From positions 1 to 64,000 of the forward strand of contig NZ_JBGNYA010000002.1 of NCBI RefSeq assembly GCF_041477585.1: 64,000 nucleotides of DNA, given 5' to 3'. The translations under genes were made by a program, and so were the position numbers. Shown here in pieces: positions 32,426-44,445 of this stretch. Position 1 is the first letter of the stretch; the number at the start of each line of letters is the position of its first letter. The DNA comes from Halobellus sp. MBLA0158 (GTDB taxonomy: Archaea; Halobacteriota; Halobacteria; Halobacteriales; Haloferacaceae). The notes under the pieces are model-generated. The model made no database searches. It saw only the letters and a list, made by a program, of their open reading frames with translations, and had not been told where the DNA came from.

Positions 32426-32777
32426 ATTTTATGTAAATTAGTTTTGAATATTAGGGACACTACACGGATTTCGTTTCTGTCTGACACATTCATTGTTGGT
32501 AATATTAGTCTATATTTGTTTCTTAGCTGCTCCACGGAAACCTCCTGTCAAATGGCATCATAAATCACACTCAATTAAGCGAATATAAAAATACCGGTAT
32601 TTTTTCTACTTAAAGTCACTCAATAAGCACAGTTTGGAGTTGATAAAGCGGTTAAGGGCTTGGTATAAAAATGCGCAAAGATTGCTCATCAAGGATTTAG
32701 ACGATGAATTAACTAACGCTCTTCGGAAGCAGGTTGTTGGTTGAGTAGAGCTGGCGCTGTAGAAGCGTAGCGGGCAA

Positions 32778-32799
32778 GGGTGACGCGGCAGCGTCACCC
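32778..32799 (+). promoter_or_regulatory. Perfect hairpin just before the IS1595 transposase start
   Basis: GGGTGACGC GGCA GCGTCACCC, 9-bp stem and 4-nt loop, 7 nt before ATG 32807. The degenerate IS1595 copy at 37859 has a hairpin in the same place with three compensated base-pair changes (38741-38762). A role in limiting transposase translation or read-through from outside is inferred. Confidence 0.7.
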
Positions 32800-32806
32800 G
32801 AATGCA

Positions 32807-33691
32807 ATGTTCCCGTTTGAGTTGCTGAACTCAGAGGCGAGCGCCGCGAACCTGCTCCAGCAGGTTCGCTGGCGCGACGGCCTCTACTGCCCGCGCTGCC
32901 GGTCTGCGTCAGTGATCAAACACGGCAGCTATCGAGAGTATCAACGGTATCTCTGTAAGGATTGCGACCGCACGTTCAACCCCAAGACCGGCACGATCTT
33001 CGCGCACGCGAAGATCGGCCTTGACAAACTCTTGTTCGCGTTCTACGCGTTACTCCGATTCAACACGAGTATCCGCCAGCTAGACGCTGAAATCGACGTC
33101 TCCTATCGGTCGCTCCGGCGGCGCGTCGAGCAGTTCGCCAGAACGCTCGACGCGCCAGCCATCGATCTTGTTGGCCCGGTCGAAATCGACGAAGTCTACG
33201 TAACTGCGGGACTGAAAGGCCGCGAGCGCGACCAGGAGTCGCGCTCGCGTGGTCTCTCGAAGCGTGGTCGTGGAAGCTACGTTGAGGACAAACCACCGGT
33301 GTTCACACTCGTTGATCGTGGCAGCGGTCAGCGATACGTCGTGCCAGCGAAATCCGCTGACGAATCGACCGTGCGACTCCTGCTGGCCGACCGCCAGCAG
33401 GAGTCGCTCACCGTCTACACTGACGGATTTCGAGCGTACGATCCGCTCGAAGATGACGAGAATTACCAGCGAAAAGCAGTGATTCACAGCGATGGTGAAT
33501 ACGTCGACGGAGACGCGCACGTGAATACCTGCGAGAGCCACGCGTCGCTGATGCGACGGTGGCTCTCGCCGCACCGAGGCGTCTCAAAAGATAAGCTCAC
33601 GCCATATCTCAGAGCTTTCCGACTGCGCTGCCGAATCTTACGTAAACCTGGTCGAGAAGCTCTCAAAGAAATCGTCCGAACCATTCTCTGA
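32807..33691 (+). CDS. IS1595-family transposase (294 aa)
   Basis: Starts MFPFELLNSEASAANLLQQVRWRDG. The N-terminal zinc ribbon CPRCRSASVIKHGSYREYQRYLCKDC is followed by a helical linker and a DDE/N-type core: EIDEVYV, LTVYTDGFRAYDPLE and VNTCESHASLMRRWLSPHRGVS, the last two giving the Asp and the Asn/Glu positions typical of ISXO2-like transposases. No stops or frameshifts, so probably active. The hairpin directly upstream may control its translation. Confidence 0.88.
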   Translation: MFPFELLNSEASAANLLQQVRWRDGLYCPRCRSASVIKHGSYREYQRYLCKDCDRTFNPKTGTIFAHAKIGLDKLLFAFYALLRFNTSIRQLDAEIDVSYRSLRRRVEQFARTLDAPAIDLVGPVEIDEVYVTAGLKGRERDQESRSRGLSKRGRGSYVEDKPPVFTLVDRGSGQRYVVPAKSADESTVRLLLADRQQESLTVYTDGFRAYDPLEDDENYQRKAVIHSDGEYVDGDAHVNTCESHASLMRRWLSPHRGVSKDKLTPYLRAFRLRCRILRKPGREALKEIVRTIL

Positions 33692-33861
33692 CTCACCAAC
33701 AACGTGCTTCACATGAGCGATTAACTAATATTGATCGAACGCCAGCTGAGGCAGGTTGGCTATATGGGGCTAAGCAAGCACTCCGAATGAAATAAAAGCG
33801 GAGATCGGCTGTTGGACTCTGGAAACCTAGGATTTGTTTGTTACACGATCGTCCCAAGTGG

Positions 33862-34875
33862 TTACGGGAGGTATTCGTTTGTGGCGTATTCAGTCACATC
33901 AAATGATTCTTCGATAACATTAACTTCGTTAACTAGGTCAACCGCATACTGAAGTCCTTCCATATCAAGCTCAGCAGATCCACGGTAGTAATCATTCTCT
34001 GTAAGATAGAATGCATCGACAGTCTCTTCAGGAATCTCGAAGTGCTCGCTAGCAAGCGACACTATTTGGTCCCGATTATTAAATGCATAGTCAATCAGTG
34101 CTTGATAATCTTCAAGGAAGGCACGCACGCTATCTTCCTTTTCGTCTAGCACATTATTCCCAGATGCGAGGAACGCATGCGGGTATGGATCAAGGATATC
34201 TTGGCTACTAAATACCTCTGTGAACCCTTCAGAGCGTGGCTCTGGGGCAAACAGCGCGGGGAATATTGCTGCGTCAAATATTCCGTCTCGTAGGCCCGCG
34301 GTAAACGTCGGGAACCCTTGCTCGACGAATTCAACGTCTTCCTGACTAAGTCCGACCTCCCGTAGTTGGTGCATCCAAACAGCGAATATTCCGCCCCCAA
34401 GAGTGTTGACAGCGAGGGTAGCACCTTCAAGATCTTCTGGGTCAGTTATGTCAGAGTCCGGAAGAGAATATACGGTAAACCCATATTGGTCCTCATAAGC
34501 GTCTCCGAACCCGCTCGCAATTGCTGTTAATCCACCAGGGACTGCTTCACCGAGGACAGTATTTGAATAGCTGACATTTGCCACCAACACTACATCTGTT
34601 TCTCCGGCAGCTAACGCATTTACCGAATCTGTTGTGGCGCCATCCCGTGAGACGGTGAGTTCATATTCCTCACCCACATTCGGTAGTTCATCCTGAACCT
34701 CAGGGATATCAAACAGCGAACCCGTATTCTCAATTGGTACCGTGAAGTTAAATCGGAGCTCCTGAGTTCCCCCGCCACCAAGGATACTACTACAACCTGC
34801 TAACCCCGACAGACCGATTGTCGTCCCCAGAGCTGTACCTCGCTTTAGTGCTCCCCGCCGAGTATAATCTGGCAT
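33862..34875 (-). CDS. ABC transporter substrate-binding lipoprotein, SsuA/TauA/NMT1-like (337 aa)
   Basis: Twin-arginine signal YTRRGALKRGTALGTTIGLSGLAGC ends in a lipobox Cys, followed by a Gly-rich linker. The mature part has the periplasmic-binding fold of nitrate/sulfonate/thiamine-precursor receptors, with DPEDLEGATLAVNTLGGGIFAVWM and VEFVEQGFPTFTAGLRDGIFDAAIF. ATG 34875 sits at the right distance from a TATA box near 34901-34910; ATG 34890 is also in frame. It should deliver substrate to the permeases at 30068-31638, from which it is now separated by IS1595. Substrate unknown. Confidence 0.85.
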   Translation of the reverse strand: MPDYTRRGALKRGTALGTTIGLSGLAGCSSILGGGGTQELRFNFTVPIENTGSLFDIPEVQDELPNVGEEYELTVSRDGATTDSVNALAAGETDVVLVANVSYSNTVLGEAVPGGLTAIASGFGDAYEDQYGFTVYSLPDSDITDPEDLEGATLAVNTLGGGIFAVWMHQLREVGLSQEDVEFVEQGFPTFTAGLRDGIFDAAIFPALFAPEPRSEGFTEVFSSQDILDPYPHAFLASGNNVLDEKEDSVRAFLEDYQALIDYAFNNRDQIVSLASEHFEIPEETVDAFYLTENDYYRGSAELDMEGLQYAVDLVNEVNVIEESFDVTEYATNEYLP

Positions 34876-34927
34876 ACTACGGTTTATCATTACATTTCCG
34901 CTATAAATATCTTTTCTTTTGGAGTCT

Positions 34928-34960
34928 GGTTGTATTTAGTTACGGATGAAGAGTGAGGAC
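34928..34960 (+). mobile_element. Left-end fragment of an IS6 element
   Basis: GGTTGTATTTAGTTA then CGGATGAAGAGTGAGG matches the IS6 terminal sequence at 46333 (GGTCGTGTTTAGTTA, same continuation) with two changes in the terminal 15 bp. No transposase sequence follows directly. Confidence 0.6.
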
Positions 34961-35399
34961 ACGTACAACTATTGTGTCGGGAAAGAGGGGTGGTAAGTGG
35001 TGCAAAGATTGGGTTCTGTGAAGTGGATGAGAAAAGTGATCCGGAAAGGATCAACATCCCCTCAGTGGCTGTTGAGAATTTAGAGAAGACGGTCACTCAA
35101 ACGTCAAATGAATGGGAAAGTACCGTTGAAAAAGAGCCGTTGGCATTGACGATGAGAGGAGAGCAGTTTTCCTCACTGACCCACGAGGTGTATGATGTAG
35201 AGTTGATCTAAGAGCAGCGATAACTACCAGGCGAAATTACTGTTCGGTGATACCGAACTATATCGGGGAGGTTGTCATATTATATTAACATACCTAAAAT
35301 AAATAACAGGCGTACGCTTGTGATTTCAATCTATATTTCAGTTTTTAGCACGGTAACTGCCTCTAAACAGGATCCGTGAGAGAGATTTGTTCGCAATCA
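34961..35399. other. Gene-poor stretch
   Basis: AT-rich sequence between two IS6 scraps. A 79-codon plus-strand frame exists at 34972-35211 but has no recognisable motif, ribosome site or promoter, so I do not call it. Probably further decayed insertion DNA. Confidence 0.4.
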
Positions 35400-35600
35400 G
35401 CGAACAATGAACTGCTCAGATGAACTGATTGAAACAGACGGCAAATACTTCGACCCACGTTTCCGCAGTTTCTGGACGAACGAAGTGTTCATAAAGGCAT
35501 CCATCCGGCGTTTGAGCGCCTTGAAGACACGTTCGACAACATTCCGATTCCGGAGGACGTATTGGAATCGGAGCAAATGGCGGCAGGCGGCCGGCAACCA
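35400..35600 (-). mobile_element. IS6-family transposase fragment
   Basis: Minus-strand translation gives PAACRHLLRFQYVLRNRNVVERVFKALKRRMDAF, the region around the catalytic Glu (ERVF) of haloarchaeal IS6 transposases. Only the C-terminal third is present. Confidence 0.6.
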
Positions 35601-35688
35601 CGGCGCTCTATCGGTCAGAAAGATCGCGTTAAAAACGAGATATTTCTCGCGGAGTTCTATTCAACCAGTTGGTTGAAAAGCATATCTG

Positions 35689-36462
35689 CTATACGTCGTC
35701 TTCTTTCTTCGAGTGAAGTTGGCTCCCACCATCGACTTCAAGAACAGTTCCTGTAATGTATTGGGCTTCGTCAGAGGCCAGAAACGCCGTTGCTTCAGCT
35801 TGATCTTTCGGATATGCCCATCGGTTCAGAGGTACATCCTCGGCAAATGCATCTCGTTCTGCCTGTGTTGTTGTCCGTTCAGCTAACGGGGTAAGAGTCA
35901 AAGAGGGACAAACCGCGTTTGCCCGGATACCGTAACCTCCTAAATCGAACGCTGTGTGCTTGGTAAGTCCGATCATTCCCCACTTTGAGGCCGTGTAGTT
36001 TGCTGCACCGTTATAACTGATACCCCGGCCCGCCATTGAAGAGATATTCACAATACGCCCATCTTCTTGTTGGATCATCGCGGGGATTGCTTCCTTCGTA
36101 CAGATGAACGCTCCTGTCAGGTTAATATTGATAATACGCCGCCACTCAGATAGAGATAAATCCTTAATGGACCCCGTCGTGGCGACGCCGGCGTTGTTGA
36201 CCAAAACATCTACACTCCCGAAACGGTCAAGCGCGCGGTCAACCATCATCGCCACGTCGTCTTGGTCCGTCACGTCGCAATCCACGGTCTCAACGTCACA
36301 TCCGGTGGCTTTTAATTCGCTTGCAGTTGATTCAAGTTTATCAACATCAACGTCAGCAAGAACGAGGTCAGCACTGTACCCACTGAGCGTCTCCGCGATT
36401 CCACGTCCTATACCCCTCGCGGCACCTGTCACCAATGCTGTCTGACCGCTAAAATCCGGCAT
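35689..36462 (-). CDS. Short-chain dehydrogenase/reductase, FabG-like (257 aa)
   Basis: Classical SDR: TGAARGIGRGI cofactor motif at 12-22, NNAG at 89-92, Ser141/142 in NISSM, and the catalytic YTASK pair Tyr156/Lys160. The C-terminal FLASDEAQYITGTVLEVDGG block is also typical. Length is standard. It oxidises or reduces a hydroxy/keto group with NAD(P). It stands alone between IS remnants in the AT-rich metabolic region, near a VOC-family gene and a glucose-dehydrogenase-like enzyme, so it may belong to a dispersed catabolic pathway. Confidence 0.9.
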   Translation of the reverse strand: MPDFSGQTALVTGAARGIGRGIAETLSGYSADLVLADVDVDKLESTASELKATGCDVETVDCDVTDQDDVAMMVDRALDRFGSVDVLVNNAGVATTGSIKDLSLSEWRRIININLTGAFICTKEAIPAMIQQEDGRIVNISSMAGRGISYNGAANYTASKWGMIGLTKHTAFDLGGYGIRANAVCPSLTLTPLAERTTTQAERDAFAEDVPLNRWAYPKDQAEATAFLASDEAQYITGTVLEVDGGSQLHSKKEDDV

Positions 36463-36520
36463 AGATTATCGTACTTCATACCCTATCTTTTGTACATTTA
36501 AATTTTGTGGTGATATTGGC

Positions 36521-37217
36521 GGTAGTGTTTAGTTAGGAACATTGAGCCAGGTGGCAAATGCTTGGAGCCAATTTTCAGCAGTTTCAGGCTGTACGTGGCT
36601 GAAGCAGTTGGAGAACGACGAAGTTCGACGCTTAAGTTCTCAAAAGATTCGCTCGATCCCATTCCGATTTCCATTGCGTTCAGTTTGAAATCGGAGCCCA
36701 ACTCCGGCCAGCGCAGTTTGGAGGTATTGAGCGACATCGACCAGAAATACGGCGGATTCGACGCCATATTTTTGCCGAAGTTCTCGGAGAAAGATCTCAG
36801 TTAATGCGGTCGTCGTAGTTGAAAATAACCGCAAATAAAGCAGATCGTTTGTGTCGAGATCAGCTCCAGTATACAGCCAGAATTGCTGATCGTTGATTCG
36901 AATCACAGTTTCGTCGACCGCAACGTGATTCGGGCTTCGACCCTCGATCGGCTGTAGATCGGCCTTTTGCACCCAATCGCGGATTGCTTTGCGAGATCGC
37001 TCGACACCCAACCCTTCGAGAACAGAGACGGTATTCGACAGCGACAGCCCCGCTAACTGCCATTGAATACCGAGCTTCATCGCACGCTCGGGTGTCCGCT
37101 ACCGCTCCACAAAACCCAAATCAATCCAGTCCGTACATCCACTGAGGCGGTTGATTTTTGCCATAGACCGGCAGAAAATCACGCCGCCTCACTCTTCATC
37201 CGTAACTAAACACGACC
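36521..37217 (-). mobile_element. IS6-family element with broken transposase
   Basis: Terminal repeats GGTAGTGTTTAGTTA (36521-36535) and TAACTAAACACGACC (37203-37217) match at 14 of 15 positions when inverted. The minus-strand transposase reads MKLGIQWQLAGLSLSNTVSVLEGLGVERSRKAIRDWVQKADLQ, VAVDETVIRIND, AVFLVD, RNGNRNGIERIF. Just before MKLG a TAG replaces the Gln codon found in other copies (VER-stop-RTPE), and the C terminus shifts frame after ERIF. About 697 bp, outline complete but inactive. Confidence 0.85.
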
Positions 37218-37264
37218 CGATCTACCGAGGAAAGATTTATACACATACAATTTATTTTATTGGT

Positions 37265-37783
37265 ATGGTTGGAGTAGAATACTCCCACGTGACGATAGTG
37301 GTCGAAAATCTCGACGAAACCGCCGAGTTCTATGAAGAGGTCTTCGATGTCGAGGAGTTACCGACACCTAACTGGGACGTTCCCGTCAGATGGTACCGAA
37401 TTGGTGAAGCCCAATTGCACCTCCTCAACGATCCCTCTGCTCCAGCGGCAGTCAGCCACTACGGACTCCACGTCGACGAGTTCGAACCCGTCTATGAGAG
37501 CGTCCTAAACCACGAATCTGCAACCTTCGAACCGTTCACAGACCGAACAGGCCACGGGATTGTCGACGGTCATCCGCCGGTGTATTACCTTCCTACCGGT
37601 ACCGTACAGTGGTATATCCGCGATCCTGCGGGGAATATGATTGAGATCAACTATCCCAATGTAGAAGATATCGATGAATCAATAGTTCCCAACATCGTTG
37701 AGCGGACTGACGTGGAGCCAGGTAACGGTCCTCACCCAGGCGATATTTACGGGAAGTTCGGTATCCAGCCCGCAGACGGCTAA
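37265..37783 (+). CDS. VOC-superfamily protein, glyoxalase/ring-cleavage dioxygenase type (172 aa)
   Basis: ATG 37265 follows a TATA-rich stretch (GATTTATAC near 37230) at leaderless distance; the upstream part of the frame lies in the IS6 end. VGVEYSHVTIVVENLDETAEFYEEVFDVEELP is the first beta-alpha-beta module, and YGLHVDEF and DPAGNMIEINYP are the later metal-ligand strands, so His, His and Glu ligands are in place. Substrates of this superfamily range from methylglyoxal adducts to catechols. Position beside SDR and dehydrogenase genes suggests a catabolic role. Confidence 0.8.
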   Translation: MVGVEYSHVTIVVENLDETAEFYEEVFDVEELPTPNWDVPVRWYRIGEAQLHLLNDPSAPAAVSHYGLHVDEFEPVYESVLNHESATFEPFTDRTGHGIVDGHPPVYYLPTGTVQWYIRDPAGNMIEINYPNVEDIDESIVPNIVERTDVEPGNGPHPGDIYGKFGIQPADG

Positions 37784-37858
37784 GGAAACGAATAGGTACG
37801 TAGTCAATACCGTGGTAGACGCCACAATGGAAACGCTTCCCCCTGTGATGTTTTTGCA

Positions 37859-38822
37859 CGCTCTTATGAAGCACGTTGTTGATTTTCAGAGGGCAGCATC
37901 GAGAGCATATTTGAGCGCTTCGTCACCTGATTTTCTGTAGAGTTCGCGGTGGAGTTGGAAGGCTCTGAGATACGGTGTTAGATTGTCTTCTGATACTCCT
38001 CGGTGAGGCCAGAGCCACCGTCGCGTCAGCGACGCGTGGCTCTCGCAGGTGTAGACATACACCTCGCCGTCGGCGTATTCTCCTTGGCCGTGGACGACGT
38101 ATTCGCGGGCGAATGCGTCATCTTCTTCGAGCGGTTCGTAGGCCCGAAATCCGTCCGTATAGACGGTCAAAGACTCCTAATCGTGATTTTCGAACAGGAG
38201 TCGAATGGTCGATTCGTCGGCGGATTTCGCTGGCACGACGTACCGATCGTTCGAGCCACGATCGACCAGCGTGAACACTGGCGGTTTGTCGCCGTCATAC
38301 GATCCTCGTCCACGCGTGGATAGGCCACGCGAGCGCGACTCCTGGTTGCACTCACGGCCTTTCTTCCCGGCAGAGACGGATACTTCGTCGATTTCGACCG
38401 GCCCGGACAGCGTGATCGACGCGCCGTCTCACCGTCCGGTACGAGAGATCGAGTTCCGCCTCGATCTGGCGAAGGCTGGTGTTGAACCGTAAGAATACGT
38501 AAATCGTGAAGTACCATTCTTTGAGTTTGAGCTTCGAGTGAGCGAAAATCGTGTCGGTTTTGTCGTTAACGTGCGACCGCAATTCTTACACAAATACCGC
38601 TGATACACCCGATAGCTGCCGTTTCTGACCGTCAGGTCAGAACGGCGGCGGGGGCACTCAACGCCATCACGCCAGCGAACCTGTTGGAGCAGGTCCGCTG
38701 CAGCCGATTCCGACACGAACCGGCTTATTGGGAACATATCGGGCACCGCTGGCGCGGTGCCCTTGCCCTCTTCGACTTTCAGCCGTAGCTCTCGCTATCA
38801 ACAATCTCCTTCGCAAGAGCGT
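37859..38822 (-). mobile_element. Degenerate IS1595-family element
   Basis: About 964 bp with ends CGCTCTTATGAAGCACG (left) and, inverted, CGCTCTTGCGAAGGAG (right), flanked by the direct repeat TTTTTGCA at 37851-37858 and 38823-38830. The transposase is recognisable (MFPISRFVSESAAADLLQQVRWRDGVECP; LTVYTDGFRAYEPLEEDD) but is broken by several frameshifts, and one zinc-ribbon cysteine is Arg (CPRR). A 9-bp hairpin at 38741-38762 precedes the start. Sequence is clearly diverged from the copy at 32717. Confidence 0.85.
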
Positions 38823-39059
38823 TTTTTGCAACACTCTCAGACAAGGGGTAGTGTTCGAATTGAGGCGCGAGGAAGGGCAAATACTCGCCCACAATCTCCT
38901 TGACGTGATATAGCTACACTCTTGCATCTGCCTACAGCTGAACAGTAGTTGCCGGTCGACTGAGAGGTCTGTTGACAAGGGATCGTGTTATCAGCTCAGC
39001 CTATATTGACGCGTCTGACGGGCAAAGCGACTGGTATCTGCCAGCTAAGGACCTCCAAC

Positions 39060-39350
39060 GAGGACTGTTCTGGCAACAGTTTCTGCACGAACTTCGCCGG
39101 AAATACGATGTCGAATCCGCTGTGTTTCTGGCCGATGGGGCCCAACACCTTCAAACTGCGTTAGCCAGTCTTCACTCCGATTTCAAATTGAACGCAATGG
39201 AAATCGGAATGCCATCGAGCGAATCTTTCGAGAAGTCAAACGTCGAAAGCCCTCGTTCTCAAACTGTTTTAGCCACGTTGAGCCTATGACCGCTGAAAAT
39301 TGGCTCCAAGCATTTGCCGCCTGGCTCAATGCTCCCAACTAAACACTACC
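39060..39350 (+). mobile_element. IS6-family remnant, right end
   Basis: FLHELRRKYDVESAVFLADGAQHLQTALASLHSDF, a frameshift, then a stretch matching the transposase C terminus, ending in AACTAAACACTACC at 39337-39350, the IS6 right end. The left half is missing. Confidence 0.75.
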
Positions 39351-43382: not shown

Positions 43383-44445
43383 GAGCCTGTCATAGAAAGC
43401 GTCACGTACGAAGCAGCAGGGTGCGGAAAGTGTGTCCAGCACAACCGCAACCCTGCAAGATGTGGATTCGGTAGACGACTTCTTGAATGTCGCGGCTACC
43501 GAGACAGTACCGCTGTTCGAGCACCTTGAGTTCGAGTTTCTGCTGGAGTACGACGTGTTCGCCCCCACTTCGAGGGGGCGAACACGAGTTCACGAGCCAC
43601 CAGATCTCTTTCGCGGTTTCCTCCACTGCTACTACGAGGATGTCTACGGTACGCGTCCGGTTACACGAGAACTCCAGCACGGCCTCGTCTGGTACCACTG
43701 CGGGCTCGATAAACCACCATCCAGAGACACGGTTGATCGCTTTCTCACCGATCTCGAACACGTTATCGACGATATCTTCGACAGACTCGTCGAGCAGGCC
43801 GCCGCCCGCGGCCTGCTCGACTCCACATACTCTATCGATTCGACCCACGTTGAAGCGATCCAACACAACGACGCTGCCTCGTGGAATTACGATCCAACTG
43901 CTGAGGAGTACTACTACGGCTTCGGCTGTACGATCGTCTCAACTGGTGCAAAGATCCCGATAGCAGCGGAGTTCACACAAACCAAGCAAGCGGATCAGGA
44001 GGCGGCGATGCGCGTCACGCGTGACGCGCTCGCCGTCGATACACCGGTCTGGATGCTCGGAGACAGCGCCTACGACATCCTCGATTGGCACGACCACCTG
44101 CTGGCCGCAGGGGTCGTGCCAATCGCTCCATACAATCCGCGAAACACTGACGACCCGAAAGACATAGAGTACAGGGTCGAAGACCGAATCGAGGAATACA
44201 GTGAGGACGTGCAGCTGAAACGATCCATCTTGGAGGAGACGTACAACAACCGGACAGGAGTCGAACGAACCAACGACGCAGTCAAGGACTGCGGCCTCGG
44301 GCACATCCGCGCCCGAGGCCGCGTCCACGCACGAACACAAGTGCTCCTTGCGCTGTGTCTCCGACTCGTCGTGGCCATCACCAACTACGAGCGAGGAAAC
44401 AATCCGGGCTGTGAGAAGCTATGAGATGGATTCTATGACAGGCTC
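43383..44445 (+). mobile_element. Intact DDE insertion sequence, IS4/IS5-superfamily
   Basis: 1063 bp bounded by perfect 15-bp inverted repeats: GAGCCTGTCATAGAA (43383-43397) and TTCTATGACAGGCTC (44431-44445). One complete transposase gene fills it. GC-rich inside AT-rich surroundings. I could not identify a convincing target duplication. Confidence 0.85.
43432..44424 (+). CDS. Transposase, DDE_Tnp_1 type (330 aa)
   Basis: GTG start (MSSTTATLQDV). The N-terminal half has the helical region PPDLFRGFLHCYYEDVYGTRPVTRELQHGLVWYHCGLDKPPSRDTVDRFL; then TYSIDSTHVEA gives the first catalytic Asp, WMLGDSAYDILDWHDHL the second, and a Glu in RTGVERTNDAVKD the third. All three are present and the frame is uninterrupted, so it is probably active. 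I place it in the IS4/IS5 superfamily without naming the exact group. Confidence 0.82.
   Translation: MSSTTATLQDVDSVDDFLNVAATETVPLFEHLEFEFLLEYDVFAPTSRGRTRVHEPPDLFRGFLHCYYEDVYGTRPVTRELQHGLVWYHCGLDKPPSRDTVDRFLTDLEHVIDDIFDRLVEQAAARGLLDSTYSIDSTHVEAIQHNDAASWNYDPTAEEYYYGFGCTIVSTGAKIPIAAEFTQTKQADQEAAMRVTRDALAVDTPVWMLGDSAYDILDWHDHLLAAGVVPIAPYNPRNTDDPKDIEYRVEDRIEEYSEDVQLKRSILEETYNNRTGVERTNDAVKDCGLGHIRARGRVHARTQVLLALCLRLVVAITNYERGNNPGCEKL

Follow-up and report, generated by a model that had tools for sequence, protein, structure and literature searches.

The 64,000-nucleotide stretch of Halobellus sp. MBLA0158 analyzed here (contig NZ_JBGNYA010000002.1, positions 1 to 64,000; hereafter the window) contains one intact and one degenerate insertion sequence (IS), both of the ISH4 group of the IS1595 family. 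Each carries a perfect 9-bp hairpin directly ahead of its transposase start codon. As judged by comparison with relatives, this start-proximal hairpin is the first of a fixed-position series of perfect inverted repeats that continues through the transposase gene, and the pattern of changes indicates that selection keeps strict Watson-Crick pairing across the series while the element is alive. The features of the two elements are as follows.

32717-33719, + strand: intact ISH4-group IS1595 element of 1003 bp, delimited by its terminal repeats and by comparison with the ends and sizes of 37 relatives that are flanked by target-site duplications
32717-32741 and 33695-33719: 25-nt terminal inverted repeats of the intact element, 84% complementary, from an inverted-repeat search
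32708-32716: left copy of the target-site duplication ATTAACTAA, 8-9 bp, read from the sequence
33720-33728: right copy of the target-site duplication ATTAACTAA, 8-9 bp, read from the sequence
32764-32777, + strand: conserved box ending in GGGCAA, directly 5' of the stem, with few changes family-wide
32778-32799, + strand: start-proximal hairpin of the intact element, GGGTGACGC-GGCA-GCGTCACCC, 9 bp, loop GGCA
32807-33691, + strand: transposase gene of 294 amino acids, DDE_Tnp_IS1595 and zinc ribbon by profile matches
37859-38821, - strand: degenerate IS1595 element of another subfamily, with target-site duplication TTTTTGCA and internal stops, from the inverted-repeat search and the sequence
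38741-38762, - strand: start-proximal hairpin of the degenerate copy, GGGCACCGC-GCCA-GCGGTGCCC, 9 bp, loop GCCA

The intact transposase consists of an N-terminal zinc ribbon (PF12760, E 3.6e-8) and a DDE_Tnp_IS1595 catalytic domain (PF12762, E 1.7e-19; NCBIfam NF033547, 137 bits against a cut-off of 75). It shares 69.7% identity with the transposase of ISH4 of Halobacterium salinarum over 294 amino acids, and 86.7% with that of ISNph2. Exact 8-bp target duplications flank 35 relatives of the intact element, and a third copy on the chromosome (G000:C1:2876593) is 90% identical to it, with the stem unchanged. On either side of the degenerate copy, frameshifted transposase pieces at 36498-37200 and 38972-39290 are left from one or more other IS families.

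The hairpin of the intact element ends 7 nt ahead of the transposase ATG (32807), and that of the degenerate copy, read from 38762 to 38741 on the - strand, ends 3 nt ahead of its ATG (38737). Both agree in coordinates and sequence with the hairpins that the first-pass annotation had reported before the two transposase starts, as do the three compensated pairs that it had noticed: pairs 4, 5 and 6 are changed in both arms (T-A/C-G, G-C/A-T and A-T/C-G), and both copies are still perfectly paired. As the two elements belong to separate subfamilies, with a protein identity of ~61%, these three pair changes represent a subfamily difference rather than changes between sister copies. No chance match to either hairpin with three or fewer mismatches was found in 100 shuffles of the window, and stems of at least 9 bp occurred in 31 of 4000 random 48-nt pieces of it. 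A search against Rfam 15 gave nothing above the gathering score, with matches at chance level only.

Relatives were collected from 80 loci in public genomes, from 391 Halobacteria genomes (177 with a match) and from plasmids, giving 167 readable distinct copies with an N-terminus. The stem lies directly 5' of the start codon in every intact, full-ended, mobile-looking copy, that of L211 being partly decayed; two intact reading frames that lack it (L219 and L233) have lost the left element end. The exact 22-nt form, with 9 bp and a 4-nt loop, is present in 123 intact copies and is perfectly paired in 107 of them, and in one lineage, represented by several identical copies (L148/L097), the loop is 3 nt long and the stem weaker. 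ISH4 itself possesses the stem GGGTGACGC-GGCC-GCGTCACCC and ISNph2 the stem GGGTGACGC-GAAC-GCGTCACCC. Seven Watson-Crick versions of the stem were found in total, namely GGGTGACGC, GGGCACCGC, GGACACCGC, GGGTGGCGC, GGGTGACAC, GGGTGATGC and GGCCACCGC. The distance from the stem to the inner terminal repeat is near-constant at 44-46 nt, whereas the ATG follows at a variable distance of 3-9 nt. Before the start codons of other transposases and of host genes on plasmid pNRC100, stems of at most 5 bp were found, and distant IS1595 groups have no start-proximal stem, so that this stem is a trait of the ISH4 group.

Two internally deleted elements, L335 (~300 bp) and L279 (~330 bp), retain both ends and the start-proximal hairpin. 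They were considered as a means of separating a function in cis from one in expression, but are not decisive, because the first part of the gene is also kept. At the loci L018, L042, L048, L053, L096, L179 and L192, from several draft genomes, a single N stands between the end of the hairpin region and the element start; such single-N contig joins inside the element are an assembly artefact that calls for caution. Additional conserved stems upstream of the main stem were sought, and just a 3-bp stem, nothing convincing, was found; a kink-turn formed by the AA/GA flanks was rejected because the second A-A pair misfits.

Several lines of evidence argue that the start-proximal stem is kept by selection for pairing rather than for particular letters, in agreement with the proposal of the first-pass annotation that the structure itself matters; the outcome that it had named as a refutation, absence of the stem from most relatives, did not arise. 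In an alignment of 32 sequences, 98.3% of the cells are paired, compared to at most 51% for slid partners, and the covariation exceeds that of all 500 shuffles. On a tree of 130 transposase genes, with ancestral states assigned by parsimony, both members of a pair changed on 10 branches, each time from one Watson-Crick pair to another, against a mean of 2.1 for permuted partners (P 0.00025). One-sided changes lie on terminal branches in 21 of 26 cases, and nine of the ten two-sided changes are internal. The stem underwent 1.9 changes per site, compared to 12.9 for third positions of codons and ~20 for the middle of the loop; the four loop positions have 8, 19, 21 and 6 changes in order, with the outer two bases conserved. 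Moreover, the stem decays with the element: perfect stems are found in 34 of 57 decayed copies (a count that includes two spurious rows, L291 and L273) versus 107 of 123 intact ones (p 7e-5). One-sided stem changes in dead copies occur at about the flank rate (0.028 versus 0.021, and 0.044 versus 0.055), whereas live copies in the 3-8% divergence bin have 0.010 in the stem versus 0.049 in the flank. Dead stems thus drift at about the rate of their flanks and live stems hardly at all, which means that selection on working elements holds the pairing.

The loops bear a further trace. GTCA was converted into TGAC in a single step along a short branch, and TAAC is the counterpart of GTTA; loops that are exact reverse complements of relatives' loops occur in L074, L209, L231 and L336 (TGAC) and in L349 (TAAC). 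These inverted loops are the footprint of template switching or loop inversion, and template switching clearly happens here. It may supply compensated changes, without being the sole maintainer of the stem.

Beyond the start codon, the inverted-repeat search revealed six further perfect hairpins within the coding sequence of the intact element, two of which have homologous remnants in the degenerate copy.

32846-32869, + strand: coding hairpin GCGAACCTGCT-CC-AGCAGGTTCGC, at the same place in 46 of 123 relatives
32994-33017, + strand: coding hairpin CGATCTTCGCG-CA-CGCGAAGATCG, in 32 of 123 relatives
33120-33156, + strand: coding hairpin of 12 bp with a 13-nt loop, in 112 of 123 relatives and 50 distinct sequences
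33221-33249, + strand: coding hairpin CGCGAGCGCGAC-CAGGA-GTCGCGCTCGCG, in ~112 of 123 relatives
33373-33407, + strand: coding hairpin of 15 bp with a 5-nt loop, in ~89 of 123 relatives and 54 distinct sequences
33531-33569, + strand: coding hairpin of 11 bp with a 17-nt loop, in ~112 of 123 relatives
38008-38046, - strand: remnant in the degenerate copy, homologous to 33531-33569, 91% paired, from the inverted-repeat search
38172-38202, - strand: remnant in the degenerate copy, homologous to 33373-33407, 83% paired, from the inverted-repeat search

For comparison between genes, perfect hairpins of at least 9 bp with a loop of 3-20 nt were counted, and the null was obtained from synonymous shuffles that preserve the protein and the codon usage. 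The intact gene has six hairpins at this threshold, compared to a mean of 0.41 and a maximum of 3 in 300 shuffles. The family mean is 4.9, with 4-7 hairpins in 119 of 123 members, and 13 members tested singly have 4-7 against 0.2-0.6 in their shuffles. The hairpins are centered at fixed positions, 50, 105, 198, 331, 428, 583 and 743 nt from the ATG; the best-kept position is occupied in 112 of 123 copies, and each position comprises 7-54 distinct sequences. Among 113 colinear genes, third codon positions have 2.3 changes inside the stems versus 12.3 elsewhere (p 6.5e-13). Compensated pair events in the coding stems of these genes number 17, compared to 0-3 for slid partners.

Outside the ISH4 group, coding hairpins also occur in the majority of the unrelated haloarchaeal IS families examined, as seen in small samples rather than a survey. 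On pNRC100 of H. salinarum, the transposases of ISH3, ISH8, ISH11 and ISH28 have 9-10, 5, 5 and 3 of them, respectively. In the ISH7A transposase none was counted, and in ten host genes 0-1. Five are present in another haloarchaeal IS1595 group, and 3-5 in copies of ISH6 and IS630. In these mutually unrelated haloarchaeal transposases (ISH3, ISH8, ISH11, ISH28, ISH6 and IS630; L352 and L353 on pNRC100, L287, L282, L288, L361-L370 and L407-L410) the hairpins are perfect, span 9-16 bp and lie far above synonymous shuffles. By contrast, none was found in ten bacterial transposases (five of IS1595, two of IS4, and Escherichia coli IS30, IS5 and IS1), nor in the one frame-broken IS1 of Salinibacter that was counted. 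Among the DDE_Tnp_1 transposases of the phylum, full-length genes of Halobacteria mostly have 3-5, whereas those of other classes nearly always have 0-2. The exception is a gene with four hairpins from the extremely halophilic methanogen Methanohalobium evestigatum (L387/L398, chromosome, G410; null 0.2), whose other IS have 0-1. In most further genomes of the phylum outside Halobacteria, IS have none, and the M. evestigatum gene gives a hint of salt adaptation as a factor in coding hairpins; for salt as their common cause, however, the evidence is mixed, given the low counts in the other IS of that species and the Salinibacter IS1. In the window itself, the region 43400-44400 holds a PF01609 transposase piece (match 43822-44364) with perfect hairpins of 14 and 12 bp (null 0.23). 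At somewhat less than even odds, we suggest that most haloarchaeal IS families, although mutually unrelated, have independently acquired coding hairpins that would be selected at silent sites for strict Watson-Crick pairing on both strands, and that they might share a so far undescribed way of life via antisense RNA, two-way termination or DNA structure.

The kinds of mispairing that are avoided bear on the strand that is selected. If only folding of the messenger RNA (mRNA) mattered, silent changes that create G-U should be better tolerated than those that create A-C. With silent sites elsewhere in the genes as the reference for rates, G-U-making silent changes in the coding stems occur at 15% of expectation (29 events) and A-C-making ones at 11% (17 events), a difference that is not significant. 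The event count in the coding stems is 48 G-U versus 58 A-C, and in the start-proximal stem of intact copies 7 versus 6; an uncorrected cell count gives 120 versus 41, but cells are inherited, and the distinct types number 13 versus 17. G-U is therefore rejected as strongly as A-C, which makes mRNA folding alone insufficient and points to selection for strict complementarity, on RNA of both strands or on DNA. In view of this result, the conserved loop ends were abandoned as proof of RNA structure.

Altogether, we propose, with a probability of roughly 0.4, that stem-loops needed in both the transposase mRNA and an antisense RNA, or serving as bidirectional terminators, hold transposase expression down. 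The hairpins would act in RNA copied from each of the two strands. On the transposase mRNA, ribosome loading would be made costly by the first hairpin, which lies 3-9 nt ahead of the AUG, and the later ones would keep the message folded. The same repeats would give matching stem-loops in the antisense RNA, and either the two RNAs would make contact through their loops, or transcription that enters from one side or the other would be slowed or terminated. Very little transposase would be made as a result, which would amount to a self-limiting brake. Antisense control through loop contacts requires pairing on both strands, which matches the pairing found. In Haloferax volcanii, 23 antisense RNAs are directed against transposases, all at the 5' untranslated region (UTR) of the target, with antisense up and mRNA down (PMC5892119). 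In H. salinarum, most mRNAs of the mobilome are abundant whereas their proteins are undetected (PMC10134880). In addition, a hairpin inside a coding region of H. volcanii was reported, once, to end 59% of transcripts (PMC7237163). The following points weigh against this proposal: a role at the DNA level accounts for the strict Watson-Crick rule equally well; the near-constant distance from stem to terminal repeat, compared to the variable distance to the ATG, fits a DNA architecture somewhat better; and haloarchaeal IS families other than ISH4 possess coding hairpins but no stem ahead of the start codon. The nearest alternative is hairpin-dependent termination in both directions, followed by the DNA-level role.

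Hiding of the translation start, which the first-pass annotation had put forward beside a block to read-through transcription, might operate on the sense mRNA alone, chiefly on read-through transcripts as in IS10, IS50 and IS200, with the coding hairpins strengthening the fold. The stem does lie where the ribosome would load and adjoins the AUG; its predicted free energy is ~-18 kcal/mol, and the predicted median cost of opening the region from -18 to +13 is 23 kcal/mol, compared to 11 for other open reading frames and 15 after shuffling of the right arm. On the sense strand, the conserved loop ends would give loops of the form GNNA or GNNC, and one lineage passed from G-C through G-U to A-U at pair 3. 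However, the start codon is outside the stem, 3-9 nt away across relatives; no Shine-Dalgarno motif in the stem is conserved across subfamilies, and no match to it is longer than 4 nt, so that its sequestration was rejected. Nor was a promoter found by sequence that would let the native transcript begin inside or past the hairpin and so escape it; the candidate promoter matches, weak and TTGATA-like, lie in or near the terminal repeat and would leave the whole stem in the transcript. The idea of an internal promoter and a TATA at the target site was rejected as well, since the symmetric target-site preference agrees with a choice made by the transposase rather than with promoter capture. Hairpins also recur far from the start codon, and G-U is rejected almost like A-C. 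A brake on the sense mRNA alone is unlikely, and the interpretation in the first-pass annotation is borne out in part, namely in the selected pairing and in the position of the stem with its cost of opening; a block to read-through transcription, its other suggestion, may also apply.

Termination or a roadblock alone, in one or both directions, would protect the element from outside transcription, or insulate against it, and involve no antisense RNA control. If it acted in two directions, it would account for why G-U and A-C are both avoided, and a case of hairpin-dependent termination has been described in H. volcanii (PMC7237163). Yet no T-run follows the stem, for which reason the 5' stem by itself was rejected as an intrinsic terminator, and mobilome mRNAs are abundant in H. 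salinarum, not absent (PMC10134880); this explanation is rather improbable. A function in DNA, as duplex palindromes or extruded hairpins that serve, for example, structure-specific host or transposase proteins, replication or DNA transfer, has a modest chance of being correct. It would explain the strict requirement on both strands and the near-constant spacing to the terminal repeat, and the loop inversions indicate that the repeat can template itself in DNA. Nevertheless, the hairpin sequences differ from each other with no common binding site visible, the right end of the element has no matching palindrome, neither the conserved loop ends nor the conserved flanks (GGCAA before, GA after) are palindromic, and such repeats are rare in haloarchaeal host genes. 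Finally, mutational upkeep without selection, in which template switching from arm to arm repairs and rewrites the stem and the compensated changes are functionless, is very improbable. Hairpins are known to arise and persist through template switching (PMC8794818), and the inverted loops agree with it; but it does not predict that stems drift in dead copies and stay perfect in live ones, and it gives no reason for the confinement of hairpins to haloarchaeal transposases.

Transposases of halophilic archaea are transcribed, hardly ever seen as protein and commonly accompanied by antisense RNAs, and the hairpin series provides a concrete and testable object for asking why. Moreover, annotation and codon models take as neutral a part of these genes that is among the most constrained.

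The closest named elements, ISNph2 and ISH4, the latter of which has been caught inserting in the laboratory (PMC7193027), share with the intact element the transposase family, size, ends and start-proximal hairpin, and nothing essential differs. The passages on ISH4 in the partially covered literature do not mention hairpins, and an earlier mention elsewhere is possible. Inverted repeats near the transposase start control translation in IS10, IS50 and IS200, and the ISH4 group resembles them in having a stem beside the transposase start that would hinder translation. It differs in that the start codon and ribosome site lie outside the stem, no internal promoter for escape was found, further hairpins follow along the gene, and G-U pairs are rejected. 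For IS10, IS30 and IS200, antisense RNAs are mentioned in a study on the bacterial IS110-family element ISPpu9 (PMC8450116). ISPpu9 likewise has a structured transposase 5' UTR, whose translation depends on the activating antisense RNA Asr9, whereas no series of coding hairpins was noticed in its description (PMC8450116). The ISH4 group differs from the CopA/CopT system in carrying many hairpins over the whole gene and in that its antisense RNA is putative. CopA/CopT is a case of antisense stem-loop control, and it is similar in that matching stem-loops on both RNA strands would account for the strict Watson-Crick stems of the ISH4 group.

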